Assembly: GCA_903891415.1 (NCBI GenBank)
Contig: CAITEH010000024.1
Coordinates: forward strand, 1-36,562
DNA from: Candidatus Firestoneibacteriota bacterium
GTDB taxonomy: Bacteria; Oederibacteriota; D2-FULL-39-29
Direction: 5' to 3'
Length of the DNA stretch: 36,562 nucleotides
Within the stretch, counting starts at the first letter, position 1; every line of letters starts with the position of its first letter. Position numbers and translations under genes: made by a program. Below the pieces are notes generated by a model that was not told the origin of the DNA, searched no databases, and saw only the letters and a list, made by a program, of their open reading frames with translations. This document shows, piece by piece, positions 21,815-29,330 of the stretch.

Positions 21815-22192
21815 TTAACTGTAAATATTATATATGGTCTCTTTCTGTAATCCCTTTATCTTTTTTGAATGTACTTTTTTTATTGCGTCTTCCAGCTGCC
21901 GTTTTGCTTGCGGGCTTAGATCGAAAAATGCGCTGCCAAAATATTTCTCTTTCTTTTTTTTCACTTCACGCACAATATCAGCGGAAATTCTCTTATAAAC
22001 GATATTTTCAAAGGTAAAAGTTAACGAAACAGGCGTATTTACCGGGAGCTCCTCCTCGGCAACTATGGAAACTCCGCCCATGGAAATATCCACCACTTTG
22101 CCGGTGTAATTTTTATTGTTTAAAATATCATAGATATACACGGGCAAATTGACCCGTACACGTTTTTGGTTTCTTTTATTTGTTATATCCAC
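21815..22192 (-). CDS. Single-domain PilZ protein (copy 2), GTG start
   Basis: 125 residues, paralog of the copy at 19452, with the same C-terminal ending ETIYNIY. Arg7-Asn-Gln-Lys-Arg11 and Asp35-Ile-Ser-Met-Gly-Gly40 preserve both cyclic-di-GMP motifs. The start is GTG (22190-22192). The DNA just upstream can be aligned base by base with the promoter-to-start region of copy 3 (shared ATATAAG, then -10, 6 nt, start codon, G), which fixes the start even though it is not ATG. No Shine-Dalgarno is present. It lies 68 bp after copy 3 on the same strand. Confidence 0.9.
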   Translation of the reverse strand: MDITNKRNQKRVRVNLPVYIYDILNNKNYTGKVVDISMGGVSIVAEEELPVNTPVSLTFTFENIVYKRISADIVREVKKKKEKYFGSAFFDLSPQAKRQLEDAIKKVHSKKIKGLQKETIYNIYS

Positions 22193-22198
22193 GGATTG

Positions 22199-22226
22199 AT
22201 CATGCTTATATAATTTTTGCTTTCAA
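22199..22226 (-). promoter_or_regulatory. Predicted leaderless promoter of PilZ copy 2
   Basis: Minus strand: TTGAAA (22221-22226), 16-nt spacer, CATGAT (22199-22204), 6 nt, GTG. The -10 is weaker than in copies 1 and 3 and looks like a degraded duplicate of the copy 3 promoter. Confidence 0.45.
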
Positions 22227-22260: not shown

Positions 22261-22623
22261 TTATGTATTTTCGTTATGGAGGCCCCTCTTGATCTTTGAA
22301 TGGATCTTTCTTATCGTAAGATCAAGTTTATTCTGTGCCTGCGCATCCAGGTCAAAAAAAGCGATACCAAGAAACTGTTCATTTTGCTTTTTTTCCTCAC
22401 GGACCACATCGGCAGGGAGCCTTTTATAAACATTCTCTTCTATAGAAAAAGTCAAAGAAACAGGCGTATTAACGGGGAGTTCTTCAACGGTAACCATCGA
22501 AACTCCGCCCACAGAAATATCAATTATCCTGCCGGTAAAATTCTTATTATTTAAAACATCATAGATCTGAACCGGAATGTTAACCTTGACGCGCATTTGT
22601 TTTCTTTTGTCTTTCATCGCCAT
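22261..22623 (-). CDS. Single-domain PilZ protein (copy 3)
   Basis: 120 residues. Motifs Arg7-Lys-Gln-Met-Arg11 and Asp35-Ile-Ser-Val-Gly-Gly40 are intact. It is shorter than its paralogs because the ETIYNIY tail is missing and it ends KRGLHNENT. The ATG at 22621-22623 follows a near-perfect promoter by 6 nt with no Shine-Dalgarno. It is divergent from the HAD phosphatase gene (105 bp between start codons). The three copies probably arose by local duplication. Confidence 0.9.
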   Translation of the reverse strand: MAMKDKRKQMRVKVNIPVQIYDVLNNKNFTGRIIDISVGGVSMVTVEELPVNTPVSLTFSIEENVYKRLPADVVREEKKQNEQFLGIAFFDLDAQAQNKLDLTIRKIHSKIKRGLHNENT

Positions 22624-22629
22624 GGGATT

Positions 22630-22658
22630 ATTATACTTATATTTTCCGATACTGTCAA
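22630..22658 (-). promoter_or_regulatory. Predicted leaderless promoter of PilZ copy 3
   Basis: Minus strand: TTGACA (22653-22658), 17-nt spacer, TATAAT (22630-22635), AATCCC, ATG. Both hexamers are consensus. Confidence 0.75.
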
Positions 22659-23757: not shown

Positions 23758-24363
23758 TCAAGGCAATTCTCTCAGCAGTGCTACAAGGTTCTTTACATTT
23801 TTTTTCAGTTCTTGCAGGCTGCCATTATTATAAATAACTATATCCGCTTTTTTTATTTTTTGTTCCAGCGGCAGCTGGGCTTTTATCCGTAACAGCGCGT
23901 CTTTTTTAGAGTACCCTTTTTCCGTAAACCGTTCAATTTGTTTTTTTTGAGAGGAAGCGACAACCAGGATAATGTCCGCCATCTTTTCCATTTTTGCCTC
24001 GAAAAGTAAAGGCGCTTCGAAAATTATTATTTTATTTTTTCTTTTTAAGCCTGCGATAGTATTTTTCATGATCGAGATTATCAGCGGATGGGTTATTTTT
24101 TCCAGCAGTTTTTTCTTTTTTTTATTTTTAAAAACGCTTCCGGCCAGTTTTTTTCTGTCCAGTGAGCCGTCTTTTGCGAGCAGGGACGGGCCAAAAGCTT
24201 TAATTATCTTTTTATAGGCCGGTTTTCCTTTTTCAACGATACGGCGGGCCACTTCATCGGCATCAATAACATATTTAAAGTATTTTTTCAGCATTGCGGC
24301 GACGGCACTCTTGCCCGTGGCCACTCCTCCTGTGATACCTATGACCGGCCTATTTGCACTCAA
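23758..24363 (-). CDS. coaE: Dephospho-CoA kinase
   Basis: 201 residues, the normal CoaE length. It performs the last step of coenzyme A synthesis, phosphorylating the ribose 3'-hydroxyl. The P-loop GITGGVATGKS is at 9-19, DADEVAR near 35, and the family segments HPLII and EAPLLFEAKMEKMADIILVV follow. The start is TTG (24361-24363) and overlaps the end of polA by 14 bp, implying translational coupling. PolA-CoaE neighbours are common in bacteria. No other CoA genes are in the window. Confidence 0.95.
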   Translation of the reverse strand: MSANRPVIGITGGVATGKSAVAAMLKKYFKYVIDADEVARRIVEKGKPAYKKIIKAFGPSLLAKDGSLDRKKLAGSVFKNKKKKKLLEKITHPLIISIMKNTIAGLKRKNKIIIFEAPLLFEAKMEKMADIILVVASSQKKQIERFTEKGYSKKDALLRIKAQLPLEQKIKKADIVIYNNGSLQELKKNVKNLVALLRELP

Positions 24364-26911
24364 ACCAGTTAGCCCCCGATTTTATATCAACTTTCAGCGG
24401 AACTTTAAGTTTCGCAACATTTTCCATGGTTTCTTTAACGGTTTTTTTCAGTTTTTCCGCCTCTTTTTCAGGGCATTCCAGTACCAGCTCATCATGCACC
24501 TGAAGCAGAAGTTTGCCTTCTCCGTCTTCTTTTTTCATTATACTATACAAATTGACCATTGCAAGCTTGATAATATCGGAAGCGGAGCCCTGGATCGGGG
24601 CATTTATGGCCATTCTTTCTGCGGCCTCCCTGACGTTTTTATTGCTGCTTTTAATATCGGGAATATATCTTTTCCTGCCGAAAAGAGTCTCAACAAACCC
24701 CTCGCTGCGGGCCTTTTCCTTGATACTTTTCATGAATTTATCCACTCCGGGGTACCTGTTAAAATAGCTGTCAATGTACTTTTGCGCTTCGGTCCTGCTG
24801 ATTTTCAATTGTTTTGCCAGGCCAAAAGCGGAAATACCGTAGATTATTCCAAAGTTAACTGTTTTTGCCTCGCTCCGCTTTTCGCCGGTAACCAGGCTTT
24901 TTTCCATATTAAAAATTTCCGCGGCCGTGCGGAGGTGAATATCCTCATCTTTCGAAAAAGCGTCCAGGAGGTTTGAGTCCCCCGAAAAATGTGCAAGTAT
25001 CCTGAGCTCTATCTGTGAGTAATCCGCGGAAATTATCTTCCAGCCCGCTTTTGAAGCAATAAAACTCCTTCTGATCTCTTTTCCGATATCATTTCTTACC
25101 GGGATATTCTGAATGTTGGGATTAAAACTGGAAAGCCGGCCCGTCGAGGTACCGGCCTGATCAAAAGAGGTATGGATCCTGTCTTTATTGTCCGCAAGAA
25201 GAGGCAGAGCGTCAATATAGGTATTTTTAAGTTTTGTCAGCTGCCGGTACTCAAGCAAAATTTTTGGCAGCGGCGACTTTAAAGAGAGCTCTTCCAGCAC
25301 TTCCACATCGGTAGAGAACCCGGTTTTGGTTTTTTTACCCGCAGGCAGTTTTAGTTTTTCAAATAAGATCTTGCCCAGCTGCCGGGAAGAATTAATATTA
25401 AACTCTTCTCCCGCCAGCCCGTAGATCTGTTTAACAAGTTCTTCAAGTGTTTTTGCAACACTTTCAGAAAGGATCTTTAAATATTTAATATCGAGTTTTA
25501 TCCCCTCCTTTTCCATCGCGGCAAGTACGGGGACTAACGGCATCTCCACTTTTTCAAAGAGCGGGAGAAGTTTCTGCCCGGAAAGTTCTTTTACAAGCGT
25601 TTTCTTTAACCTTAAAAGAAAGCAGACTTCCCCGTCTTCCGCAGGATTTTCCGTCAGGTATCTGAAGACGGCCTCGGCAGGGGAAGAACTTCCGCGGTCA
25701 GGATCTAAGATATACACCGCCAGCATGCAGTCGAATACCCGCGCTTTCGGTGTTACTCCGCCGTAGAGTCTTAAAAATTTTTTATAATCAAAAAAAGAAA
25801 AATTGTATGTTTTTTCCGCCAGCAGTTCTTCCGGCGCAAATTTATCAGGCTCCAGGCTGTAAACCCTGCCTTCTTCCAGGCTCAAAAGCAGCTTTCCGCC
25901 GCTCAAAGCCAGGCCGGCCTCTTTTAGTTCTTTAAGTTTCTCTTTAAGCTCCTCAAACTCTTTTTCATTGTTTACGGGAAGGAAGCTGCATTCTGTCTTT
26001 TTTTCCCCCGTAAAAAGATCTTCTTCTTTATCCGCAAAAAAGACAGGATCGAGTTTCTTGAAATCTTCCCGCAGGCTTGTAAATTCCAACTCAGAAAGCT
26101 TTTCCATTACCTCCTGCGCATGCGGTTCCTTCAGGATAAGCTCCTCTATTTTAATATTCAGCGGGGGCTCTATCAATACCGCGAGCGTTTTGCTGAAATA
26201 CGCCATTTCCCGCCCTTTTTGAAGTTTTTCTCTCAGTTTCTCATTTTTTATTTCAGACAAATTACCATATACCTCATCAAGATCCTTGAATTCCTTCAGC
26301 AATTCTGAGGCGGTTTTTTCTCCTATGCCATCCACCCCCGGGATATTATCGCTGGCGTCTCCCAGTAGAGCGAGAAAATCTACCATTTGTCCGGGCGCTA
26401 TTCCGTACTTTTCCTTTACTTTATCAGCGTCATATATATAATCATCCTTATGAACACTCATTATTTTTACGTGCTCATTTACAAGCTGCAAAAGATCTTT
26501 GTCTCCCGTAAGAATAAGTACATCCAGCCCGGCTTTTTCACCCTTTTTTGCAAGATAAGCGATTATATCATCGGCTTCGTAACCTGAAAGTTCAAAAGAA
26601 GGGATATTAAACGCTTTTATCAGGTCTTTTGTGACCGGCATCTGGGCGATAAGATCTTCGGGCGCGGGCTCACGCTGTATCTTGTAACCGGCAAAGGCTT
26701 TATGCCGCAAGGTAGGCCCTTTGGTATCAAAGGTAAAGGCAATATAGTCCGGCTTATAATTTCTAAATATTTTAATTAAAAGGCGCGCCATTCCGAAGAC
26801 CGCATTGGTTGGCGCGCCTTTTTTCGTCTTTAAATTTTTTATCGCATAATAACTGCGGTAGAGATATGAATTGCCGTCCACCAGAAAAAGCTTTTTCCTT
26901 TTCTCTACCAT
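24350..26911 (-). CDS. polA: DNA polymerase I
   Basis: 853 residues. The 5'-3' nuclease domain fills about residues 1-280 (LFLVDGNSYLYRSYYA, YEADDIIAYLAK, ALLGDASDNIPGVDGIGEKTA). The polymerase domain begins near 480 and has motif A (ISADYSQIELRILAHFSGD), motif B (KTVNFGIIYGISAFGLA) and motif C (QVHDELVLECP). The middle domain is short and lacks the DxE proofreading motif (LALSGGKLLL occupies its place), as in Taq and Bst enzymes, so 3'-5' proofreading is likely absent. The ATG lies 15 bp after the dksA stop with AGGAA upstream. It acts in replication primer removal and repair. Confidence 0.96.
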   Translation of the reverse strand: MVEKRKKLFLVDGNSYLYRSYYAIKNLKTKKGAPTNAVFGMARLLIKIFRNYKPDYIAFTFDTKGPTLRHKAFAGYKIQREPAPEDLIAQMPVTKDLIKAFNIPSFELSGYEADDIIAYLAKKGEKAGLDVLILTGDKDLLQLVNEHVKIMSVHKDDYIYDADKVKEKYGIAPGQMVDFLALLGDASDNIPGVDGIGEKTASELLKEFKDLDEVYGNLSEIKNEKLREKLQKGREMAYFSKTLAVLIEPPLNIKIEELILKEPHAQEVMEKLSELEFTSLREDFKKLDPVFFADKEEDLFTGEKKTECSFLPVNNEKEFEELKEKLKELKEAGLALSGGKLLLSLEEGRVYSLEPDKFAPEELLAEKTYNFSFFDYKKFLRLYGGVTPKARVFDCMLAVYILDPDRGSSSPAEAVFRYLTENPAEDGEVCFLLRLKKTLVKELSGQKLLPLFEKVEMPLVPVLAAMEKEGIKLDIKYLKILSESVAKTLEELVKQIYGLAGEEFNINSSRQLGKILFEKLKLPAGKKTKTGFSTDVEVLEELSLKSPLPKILLEYRQLTKLKNTYIDALPLLADNKDRIHTSFDQAGTSTGRLSSFNPNIQNIPVRNDIGKEIRRSFIASKAGWKIISADYSQIELRILAHFSGDSNLLDAFSKDEDIHLRTAAEIFNMEKSLVTGEKRSEAKTVNFGIIYGISAFGLAKQLKISRTEAQKYIDSYFNRYPGVDKFMKSIKEKARSEGFVETLFGRKRYIPDIKSSNKNVREAAERMAINAPIQGSASDIIKLAMVNLYSIMKKEDGEGKLLLQVHDELVLECPEKEAEKLKKTVKETMENVAKLKVPLKVDIKSGANWFECK

Positions 26912-26926
26912 TTCATTCCTGTTTTA

Positions 26927-27391
26927 TCAACCCCCGGTTTTTGTCTGGCACTCAATGCAATACTTTGCGTGCGGGAGCGCTTCAAGGCGTACTTTGTTTA
27001 TTTTTTTGCTGCAGAGTTCACAGGTGCCGAAGGAGCCATTTTCGATCTTCTCCAGAGAAGATTCAATGCTTTCTATCTGCAGCTTTTCAGAATCACTCAA
27101 GTTGTGGAGAAACTCCGTGTCATAAGTATCACTCGCCAGATCTACCGAATCTTTCACCTCATTAAAGTCTATTTTTTTACTGTCATCAAGATTTTTATTA
27201 AGTTCTTCGATAATGTTCTTTTTAAGCAAGATCAGCTTTTCTTTATATTTTTTACGGTCTTTCGGCGGGAGTTTCTCCGCTTTTACGGGTTTAGAAGGCT
27301 TTATCCGTAAGCTCCCGGCAAGTTTTACCCGGACTGTTTTTGCTTTGCCCGTTTTTACTTTTTTGTTAACTTTATTCCTGATCTTCTTCAT
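26927..27391 (-). CDS. DksA/TraR-family zinc-finger protein
   Basis: 154 residues from the ATG at 27389-27391. A lysine-rich tail of about 45 residues comes first. A coiled coil follows with the DksA tip motif DxxDxA (Asp81, Asp84, Ala86), then a C4 zinc finger Cys124-x2-Cys127-x17-Cys145-x2-Cys148. DksA binds in the RNA polymerase secondary channel and tunes transcription with ppGpp; the tip motif supports such activity. The ORF extends further upstream, but the GAGGAG ribosome site lies 7 nt before this ATG and the extra residues overlap the micro-ORF at 27372-27512 in another frame. First large gene of the polA-coaE run. Confidence 0.88.
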   Translation of the reverse strand: MKKIRNKVNKKVKTGKAKTVRVKLAGSLRIKPSKPVKAEKLPPKDRKKYKEKLILLKKNIIEELNKNLDDSKKIDFNEVKDSVDLASDTYDTEFLHNLSDSEKLQIESIESSLEKIENGSFGTCELCSKKINKVRLEALPHAKYCIECQTKTGG

Positions 27392-27512
27392 CGTGGGTCT
27401 CCTCGACATGGCAATCTTTATAGTATATACATTTCTTACAGCAGCCCTCAAGCAAAGTCCCGGACTCGCTGCAAGTTTCATAGTAGGGGCATTCATCACA
27501 ACAATACAGCAC
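27372..27512 (-). CDS. 46-residue cysteine-rich micro-protein with duplicated CC-x2-C-x5-C motif
   Basis: A short ORF with GTG start (27510-27512) and TAA (27372-27374). AAGGAG lies 9 nt upstream. It overlaps the dksA start by 20 bp, and the dksA ribosome site is inside it. Two copies of the same motif are present: CCDECPYYETC (4-14) and CCKKCIYYKDC (24-34), exactly 20 residues apart. Both have the form CC-x2-C-x-YY-x2-C. An acidic tail (VEETHDEEDQE) follows. Eight cysteines in two equal sets suggest two zinc or iron-sulfur sites. The internal repeat is strong evidence for a real coding frame. I do not know a named family. Translational coupling to dksA is likely. Confidence 0.72.
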   Translation of the reverse strand: MLYCCDECPYYETCSESGTLLEGCCKKCIYYKDCHVEETHDEEDQE

Positions 27513-27574
27513 CTTCTTACTCTCCTTCTGGTAGCTTGAAAATATTTCCGTGTTTATCTGGTAATGTATCCTTA

Positions 27575-27806
27575 TTGGATTATTATTTTTTTCCTGCCAA
27601 ACCGGTTCTTACGAACCCTTTGGTATACCAGAATACGGCTTTCAGGCCGTGATCTGATAGGAAATTATTATCTTGATCATGCCAAATTAGGTTCTTACGA
27701 ACCCTTTGGCATACCAGAATACGGCTTCAGGCCGTGATCTGATAAGAAATTATTATTTTGATCATGCCAAATTAGGTTCTCACGAACCCTTTGGCATACC
27801 AGAATA
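27575..27806 (-). repeat. 85-bp palindromic tandem repeat, about 2.7 copies
   Basis: Units at 27722-27806, 27636-27721 and a diverged partial one at 27575-27635, nearly identical in the first two. On the minus strand each unit has two hairpins: ACGGC-CTGAA-GCCGT (extended by CAGA/TCTG), and TGCCAAA..GGTTC-GTRA-GAACC..TTTGGCA with a GNRA loop. The first unit supplies the last nine codons, stop included, of the decarboxylase gene. This explains the 27513-27779 gap, which holds no other gene. Confidence 0.85.
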
Positions 27807-29330
27807 GCCGATTATCTTGCTAACTTCAAGTATATTGTTTGTATTATCTGCTTCGTGCCTGGATTCCTGAACGACCTTAATAAAATTAAGGTTTTTATCA
27901 TCCTGACCGTTTATTATGGTGCCCATATCCTTAAGGAACAGGAGATAATCATAAACTTCTTTTGTTATTCTTTCTCCCGGGGCAAGTAAAGGTATTCCCG
28001 GAGGATAAGGACAGATAATTTCAGCGCTGATCATGCCGATAGCATCTTTAAAATGCACTTTTTTCGTAACGGAGAAGGCGGCTTCTCTTGGTGTTAAAAC
28101 AACCTCCGAGACGATACTTGGAAAACCCACGCTCCTGATTGCATTTACCACCTGTTCATTTTTTTTATAGCCTATTTTAATATTTTTCAGGGCGTAAATC
28201 AGCTTTTCTATGTCATTTTTTGTGTTGCCAAGACTGATAATGGCCAGGAGGCTTGTCGGGGTGGCAAATTCCACCTGAATATTATACTTCTTGTTCAGCA
28301 GTTTGTGCACCGCATACCCGGTATCGCCGATCCCGGTCGCGTCAATATTTAATTTGGTAACATCCAGGCTGAAGATCCCCTCTCGGCCTATGGCTTCACG
28401 GCCAAAGCAGCCGAGGCCCTGCCCCTTTATCCCCTTCCTTGCTTCCTCCGCCAGATTTATCACCCTGGAAAGAATTTCTCTGCCCTGTGTAGCCATCTGC
28501 ATTCTGGCAACATCCAAAGAGGCCATTAATATATAGGAAGGTGAAGTAGTATGCAGTAATTGCAGGATCCGTTTTAATTTCATAAGATCAATGCTCTTTC
28601 TTGCCAGAAGCATTGAGGCCTGGGTCATCCCCGAGATTATTTTGTGGGTGCTTTGCACGCAAACATCCGCGCCGGCTTCCATCGCAGAGGTCGGCAGGTC
28701 GGGATGGAATTTAAGATGGGGCCCGTGAGCTTCATCCACCATTATTATTTTTTTGTGGTTGTGGGCTATCCGGACAAGCTCCCTGATATCCGTTGTTATC
28801 CCGTTGTAGGTGGGATTGGTAACAAGTATGGCTTTCGCATCCGGATGCTGGTTAAGCTTTTCCTCCACCTGCTGCGGTGTAATGTTCGTGATGATACCAA
28901 GTTCTTTGTCAAATTTGGGATAGATATAAACAGGGATGGCGCCGCTTAAAATTACCCCGGCTATTACCGATTTATGGGCATTCCGGGGAATTATTATCTT
29001 GTCCCCGGGCATACAGGCGGCAAGTATCATCGCCTGATTCCCGATGGTGGTGCCATTTACAAGAAAGAAGGCAAAATCCGCGCCATAAGCTTCGGCCGCC
29101 AGGTTTTGCGCCTCTTTGATAACTGTCTTGGGATCCTGGAGCGAGTCAACTTCTTCCAGGAGCGTAAGGTCAATATCAAATATTTTGGCGCCGACAAATT
29201 CTCTGAATTTTTTGGGAATACCGTCGCCATGTTTATGCCCGGGTGTATGAAAAGAGATCTTTTTCTTCCTGGCGTAATTAACGACCGCGTCAAATAGCGG
29301 TGTCTTTAATTGTCTTTCATAAAAATCCAT
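27780..29330 (-). CDS. Orn/Lys/Arg decarboxylase (fold-type I PLP enzyme)
   Basis: 516 residues, the length of the Gram-positive SpeA/Cad type rather than the large inducible enterobacterial form. HTPGHKHGDG (28-37) is the family N-terminal signature. Asp199 in MVDEAHG binds the PLP ring and Lys230 in STHKIISGMTQASM forms the Schiff base. The C-terminal domain has CPYPPGIPLLAPGE. It makes agmatine, cadaverine or putrescine in the cytosol; which one is uncertain. The last eight residues (YSGMPKGS) are encoded by the first unit of the 85-bp repeat, so the native C-terminus may have been altered. It has its own promoter and an AGGGAG ribosome site. Confidence 0.92.
   Translation of the reverse strand: MDFYERQLKTPLFDAVVNYARKKKISFHTPGHKHGDGIPKKFREFVGAKIFDIDLTLLEEVDSLQDPKTVIKEAQNLAAEAYGADFAFFLVNGTTIGNQAMILAACMPGDKIIIPRNAHKSVIAGVILSGAIPVYIYPKFDKELGIITNITPQQVEEKLNQHPDAKAILVTNPTYNGITTDIRELVRIAHNHKKIIMVDEAHGPHLKFHPDLPTSAMEAGADVCVQSTHKIISGMTQASMLLARKSIDLMKLKRILQLLHTTSPSYILMASLDVARMQMATQGREILSRVINLAEEARKGIKGQGLGCFGREAIGREGIFSLDVTKLNIDATGIGDTGYAVHKLLNKKYNIQVEFATPTSLLAIISLGNTKNDIEKLIYALKNIKIGYKKNEQVVNAIRSVGFPSIVSEVVLTPREAAFSVTKKVHFKDAIGMISAEIICPYPPGIPLLAPGERITKEVYDYLLFLKDMGTIINGQDDKNLNFIKVVQESRHEADNTNNILEVSKIIGYSGMPKGS

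Follow-up and report, generated by a model that had tools for sequence, protein, structure and literature searches.

Does the short, GTG-started reading frame that runs into the start of dksA in a member of the order Candidatus Firestonebacteria encode a protein, and is that protein's role tied to DksA? The frame lies in a 36,562-nt stretch of DNA, the whole of which we call the window. A first-pass annotation had described it as a hidden 46-residue protein with two cysteine repeats 20 residues apart, and had suggested a tiny metal or redox sensor that supplies or checks zinc for DksA, or a redox switch for the dksA-polA-coaE run. The frame is real at the position and on the strand given for it, with the following features:

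27520..27527, minus strand: Shine-Dalgarno sequence of the small gene, AAGGAGAG, about 9 nt before the GTG
27372..27512, minus strand: small gene encoding 46 aa, from a GTG start to a TAA stop, and conserved in each of the order's 9 genomes
27471..27503, minus strand: repeat 1, CCDECPYYETC, found as a pattern match, its Cys and Tyr invariant across lineages
27411..27443, minus strand: repeat 2, CCKKCIYYKDC, found as a pattern match and in the cross-lineage alignment
27375..27410, minus strand: acidic tail, HVEETHDEEDQE, net charge -7

The product, MLYCCDECPYYETCSESGTLLEGCCKKCIYYKDCHVEETHDEEDQE (window 27512..27372, minus strand), consists of two CC-x2-C-x5-C repeats and an acidic C-terminal tail. 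The corresponding nucleotide pattern, TGYTGYN6TGYN15TGY, matches twice in the 36.6-kb window, both times within the small ORF and 60 nt apart, against a chance expectation of 0.01; no shuffle contained two matches. As for the duplication, which the initial view found hard to explain by chance, the two repeats share 6 of 11 residues, a level reached by 43 of 3000 composition-preserving shuffles. Internal duplication of the window protein alone is thus only moderately unusual, and the case for a gene rests on comparison. Scans for Rfam families, promoters and terminators around the small gene gave nothing above chance.

All nine sampled genomes of the order carry the small gene (E 1e-16 or better), each with an AGGAG or GGAGG-type Shine-Dalgarno sequence and with GTG or TTG as the only start codons, while a profile search of 36 other genomes of the same phylum found it in none. 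Among the genomes of the order, substitutions at the first, second and third codon positions numbered 226, 145 and 568. The selection check across homologs that had been proposed at the outset gave a dN/dS of about 0.05; by NG86, the Cys frame had a mean dN of 0.094 and a mean dS of 1.53, these means being taken over the 12 pairs with usable dS, since most remaining pairs were saturated. With the Cys codons removed, three pairs with 12, 10 and 14 nucleotide changes showed 1, 0 and 3 amino-acid changes, respectively, and so few occurred in none of 5000 neutral simulations for each of the three; a fourth, very close pair (2 changes) was uninformative for this test. The 27 non-Cys codons are under purifying selection. 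A longer, 190-aa version of dksA, starting upstream in the same frame at a GTG at 27499, was rejected as the true gene, since dN exceeds dS (0.34 vs 0.19) where its frame overlaps the small gene. In an alignment of 11 sequences drawn from several lineages, neither Tyr11 nor any of the eight Cys varies, and it is this cross-lineage conservation that settles the reality of the gene. The first-pass annotation had staked its case beforehand on the cysteine spacing and an intact frame in related genomes, and both favour the gene. The small ORF is confirmed as a real and strongly conserved gene.

The small gene sits among the following neighbours:

27780..29330, minus strand: Orn/Lys/Arg decarboxylase gene (OKR_DC_1), the upstream neighbour throughout the order
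27399..27404, minus strand: dksA Shine-Dalgarno sequence GAGGAG, within the small gene, 7 nt before the dksA ATG
26927..27391, minus strand: dksA, 154 aa, with a C4 zinc finger and DSVDLA at the coiled-coil tip
24350..26911, minus strand: polA, downstream neighbour
23758..24363, minus strand: coaE-like gene, downstream neighbour, assigned from position and sequence only

The window dksA matches PF01258 at 8.9e-11, and its DSVDLA is the DxxDxA motif of the coiled-coil tip. Its ATG at 27391 lies 20 nt inside the small ORF, so the overlap with the dksA start noticed earlier is real, and within the order the two genes are physically coupled: the overlap is 20 nt in eight of the nine genomes and 17 nt in the ninth, and the dksA ATG follows the small-gene start by exactly 121 nt in every one. 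The dksA Shine-Dalgarno sequence coincides with codons 37-38 of the small gene (Glu37-Glu38) in all nine, reading GAGGAG, or GGGGAG in two. In 9/9 genomes the small gene lies between the Orn/Lys/Arg decarboxylase gene and dksA, and the order-wide arrangement, to the extent that contigs reach, is OKR decarboxylase, small gene, dksA, polA, coaE. Because of the overlap and the position of the dksA Shine-Dalgarno sequence inside the small gene, translational coupling of the small gene to dksA is likely. From this geometry we infer that a ribosome ending the small gene would free or reuse the embedded Shine-Dalgarno sequence and re-initiate, and such coupling would tie DksA output to the small protein.

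Between the decarboxylase gene and the small gene, outside the latter, lies a separate element:

27579..27806, no strand assigned: palindrome-rich tandem repeat of 85 nt, 2.7 copies

It folds far better than shuffled sequences (z -4.7 and -4.0). A sister genome, G001, carries one copy or more at the corresponding site, and in both genomes the end of the decarboxylase frame seems to lie within the repeat (...YSGMPKGS).

Relatives were sought by iterated profile searches, with the profile rebuilt in each round, and the distribution beyond the phylum is based on about 340 sampled genomes. The family is present in 7/7 genomes of a phylum that we take, from indirect identification, to be Dictyoglomota; two of these are presumably D. 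thermophilum H-6-12 and D. turgidum. The Dictyoglomus member has 41 residues, MFCCEDCPYYNECLNHKVGCCSKCPHYNECYDVKEGYNSEG. Elsewhere, the family occurs in G266 (one of six genomes of its phylum) and in G344 and G207 (both genomes of a small phylum), whose members (L212, L213) follow the Cys core with strongly Asp/Glu-rich tails of 54-62 residues. G342 carries a weaker member (E 7e-4 for one genome), and its assignment leans on the visible two-repeat motif. The distribution is patchy.

Both CC-x2-C-x5-C repeats are found in every relative, separated by linkers of 9, 6 or 14 residues, and an acidic tail usually follows them. The double Tyr of the motif as first written is not conserved: the shared form is CC-x2-C-x2-Y-x2-C, in which the repeat-2 aromatic may be Phe or, once, Met. 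Likewise, the 20-residue spacing holds for all nine genomes of the order and for G266, G344 and G207, but Dictyoglomota have a spacing of 17 and G342 one of 25.

Weak profile hits in ten further genomes (G136, G148, G308, G336, G349, G027, G075, G152, G168 and G360) lacked a two-repeat ORF and were set aside as chance matches. An exact scan of viral contigs for the Cys pattern gave more than 120 matches; of these, 80 loci were read, and they proved to be low-complexity or repetitive frames rich in Cys, or frames interrupted by stops, none encoding a similar protein. Profile scans of viral contigs likewise recovered no family member, nor did protein searches against plasmids and phages.

Genomic contexts differ among lineages and do not converge on one function. 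In Dictyoglomota the order is speD-speE, family gene, aroK-aroQ. The G266 gene lies near an ArsR-type regulator and an unmatched, glycosyltransferase-like gene; that of G207 near a response regulator with GAF and GGDEF domains (Pfam), with G344 likely similar; and that of G342 beside radical-SAM-like and Lrp-like neighbours recognized by eye.

These contexts bear on whether the peptide or only its translation matters. A short ORF that contains paired Cys codons and finishes across the dksA start could be a leader peptide, in which those codons would stall ribosomes when cysteine is scarce and so change dksA expression. Precedent exists in the polycysteine upstream ORFs of mycobacteria, where cysteine-rich regulatory sORFs are known (Canestrari 2020, cited in PMC9094748). 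Like the small gene, these are short Cys-rich ORFs upstream of, and close to, an operon gene; the peptide here differs in that its own sequence is kept in different phyla and contexts, that it has a Shine-Dalgarno sequence, and that its non-Cys residues are under selection. The strong constraint on those residues, together with the conservation of relatives between speE and aroK in Dictyoglomota and in other unrelated contexts, makes a leader peptide highly improbable; such a peptide should not hold on to its sequence in phyla where its neighbours differ.

Comparison of the family with Pfam, NCBIfam, PHROGs and PDB sequences gave no significant match to a known protein. The weak hits, all short of significance, included WhiB models (E 0.26 for Pfam PF02467, 0.27 in PHROGs), PF02467 touching 3 of the 11 members and not the window protein; the WhiB hits arise from the C-x2-C-x5-C spacing in common. 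WhiB-like (Wbl) proteins (PF02467) are also small and often have Pro after CxxC, as is common in the new family. In WhiB1, the final three ligands of the cluster (C37, C40 and C46) are spaced in this same way, and a G[V/I]WGG motif is defined for Wbl proteins (PMC6282962). In contrast to Wbl proteins, no aligned family sequence has G[V/I]WGG after its last Cys, the distant N-terminal Cys is lacking, and two full Cys repeats occupy about 31-39 residues in organisms outside Actinobacteria. NCBIfam NF040902, a CCxxC NuoF prefix domain, shares the CCxxC core but matched one member only, non-significantly (E 1.2), and the family has no NuoF fusion. The DksA/TraR C4 zinc finger (PF01258), encoded next door in the order, is likewise a four-Cys unit, but the small protein has no match to its profile, a different Cys spacing and no coiled coil.

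What, then, might the protein do? Eight invariant Cys within 46 residues suggest metal or redox chemistry, and to that extent the idea of a tiny metal or redox protein holds. The sequence has no visible signal peptide or membrane segment, which makes reduced cytosolic thiols, and hence metal ligands, likelier than disulfides. The most likely reading is an undescribed family of cytosolic, eight-thiolate, putative metal-binding microproteins. Each CC-x2-C-x2-Y-x2-C repeat would supply four thiolates to one metal site, with Zn(II) favoured and [4Fe-4S] as the main rival, and the protein would fold around its metals, probably acting as an adaptor or a metal- or redox-responsive binder and not as an enzyme. 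An AlphaFold model built from eight close sequences had a mean pLDDT of 54 and a pTM of 0.25, values too low to show two discrete sites or to favour either metal. Adjacent Cys-Cys ligands within a single metal site are unusual, which counts against metal sites of this kind. Overall, we consider rather probable the full reading, in which this undescribed two-repeat family binds metal, acts as a small adaptor or responsive binder and, in the order, is translationally coupled to dksA.

An iron-sulfur microprotein is possible, though on balance unlikely: each C-x2-C-x5-C triad, with a Cys from the neighbouring position or the other repeat, would bind a [4Fe-4S] cluster, and the protein would sense redox state or NO/O2. 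The WhiB1-like spacing, the weak WhiB matches, the Pro after CxxC and the anaerobic life of Dictyoglomus all point this way, but the matches are non-significant, the Wbl hallmarks are missing, and the symmetric duplicate Cys set fits two four-thiolate zinc sites equally well. We regard as quite doubtful the broader proposal of a new, widely scattered family with two metal sites of an iron-sulfur or redox-labile kind which, within the order, would relay metal or redox state to transcription: translational coupling would set the output of DksA, and the protein might also contact DksA or RNA polymerase directly.

The link to DksA itself can be judged from genomes that have one gene and not the other. 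Of the phylum's 36 other genomes, all of which lack the small gene, 31 have a dksA-like gene, and no comparable ORF precedes dksA at the 21 of these loci that were read. Conversely, a search for PF01258 that covered the window's genome and 11 others bearing the family found no recognisable DksA in any of the seven Dictyoglomota, each of which carries the family. Three Dictyoglomota genomes that are 99% complete had no PF01258 match; the matches in G403, G404 and, weakly, G401 lie in long frames, and the one examined, in G403 (which we take to be a D. thermophilum-like genome), is a TrmO-FmdE fusion. Four genomes (G266, G344, G207 and G342) have both DksA and the family gene, on different contigs. 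No publication on the family, or on DksA in Dictyoglomus, turned up in literature searches.

Since Dictyoglomota carry the family without recognisable DksA, the DksA link is a feature of one order, and the family is independent of DksA. The neighbour order with dksA holds in 9/9 genomes of the order, but not at the 21 other dksA loci of the phylum or in Dictyoglomota. The zinc finger of Salmonella DksA is a thiol switch and can lose Zn (PMC4815678), and with the fixed coupling in 9/9 genomes this could suggest that the small protein serves DksA specifically, by donating zinc or as a redox partner. As a general role, the zinc supply or checking first proposed fails on the Dictyoglomota without a recognisable DksA and on the other dksA loci of the phylum without the ORF; the separate contigs in the four genomes also argue against it, and we hold such a partner to be improbable. 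A partner role could be local to the Firestonebacteria order.

A separate observation concerns DksA searches: the TrmO-FmdE protein of G403 (L238, 1495-2457) has a C-terminal DksA-type zinc finger and can mislead them.

Together, these results describe a family of small proteins that is absent from the libraries searched, under strong selection in uncultured Firestonebacteria and present in culturable Dictyoglomus. The 41-residue Dictyoglomus form, encoded beside speE, makes metal content and partners directly testable. Firestonebacteria would offer a clean case of a regulator, DksA, translationally locked to a possible metal-binding partner.

Polyamine genes precede the small gene in two phyla: it follows speD-speE in Dictyoglomota and the Orn/Lys/Arg decarboxylase gene in Firestonebacteria. 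In one Firestonebacteria family (L023-L026, 3.7-6.0 kb), speD (TIGR03330) lies directly upstream of the decarboxylase gene; in the window's own family it does not. A polyamine-linked regulator or a metallothionein-like metal buffer would be a further reading, and an unlikely one: the polyamine association was spotted post hoc and does not extend to the surroundings of the gene in G266, G344, G207 and G342, and metallothionein models gave no match to the family. The association is a post hoc lead.

Elsewhere in the window, positions 21905-22204 and 22336-22635 form neighbouring 300-nt direct repeats, 69% identical, in a region encoding several similar small proteins (RKQMRVRV...IYDILNNK) that look PilZ-like by eye.
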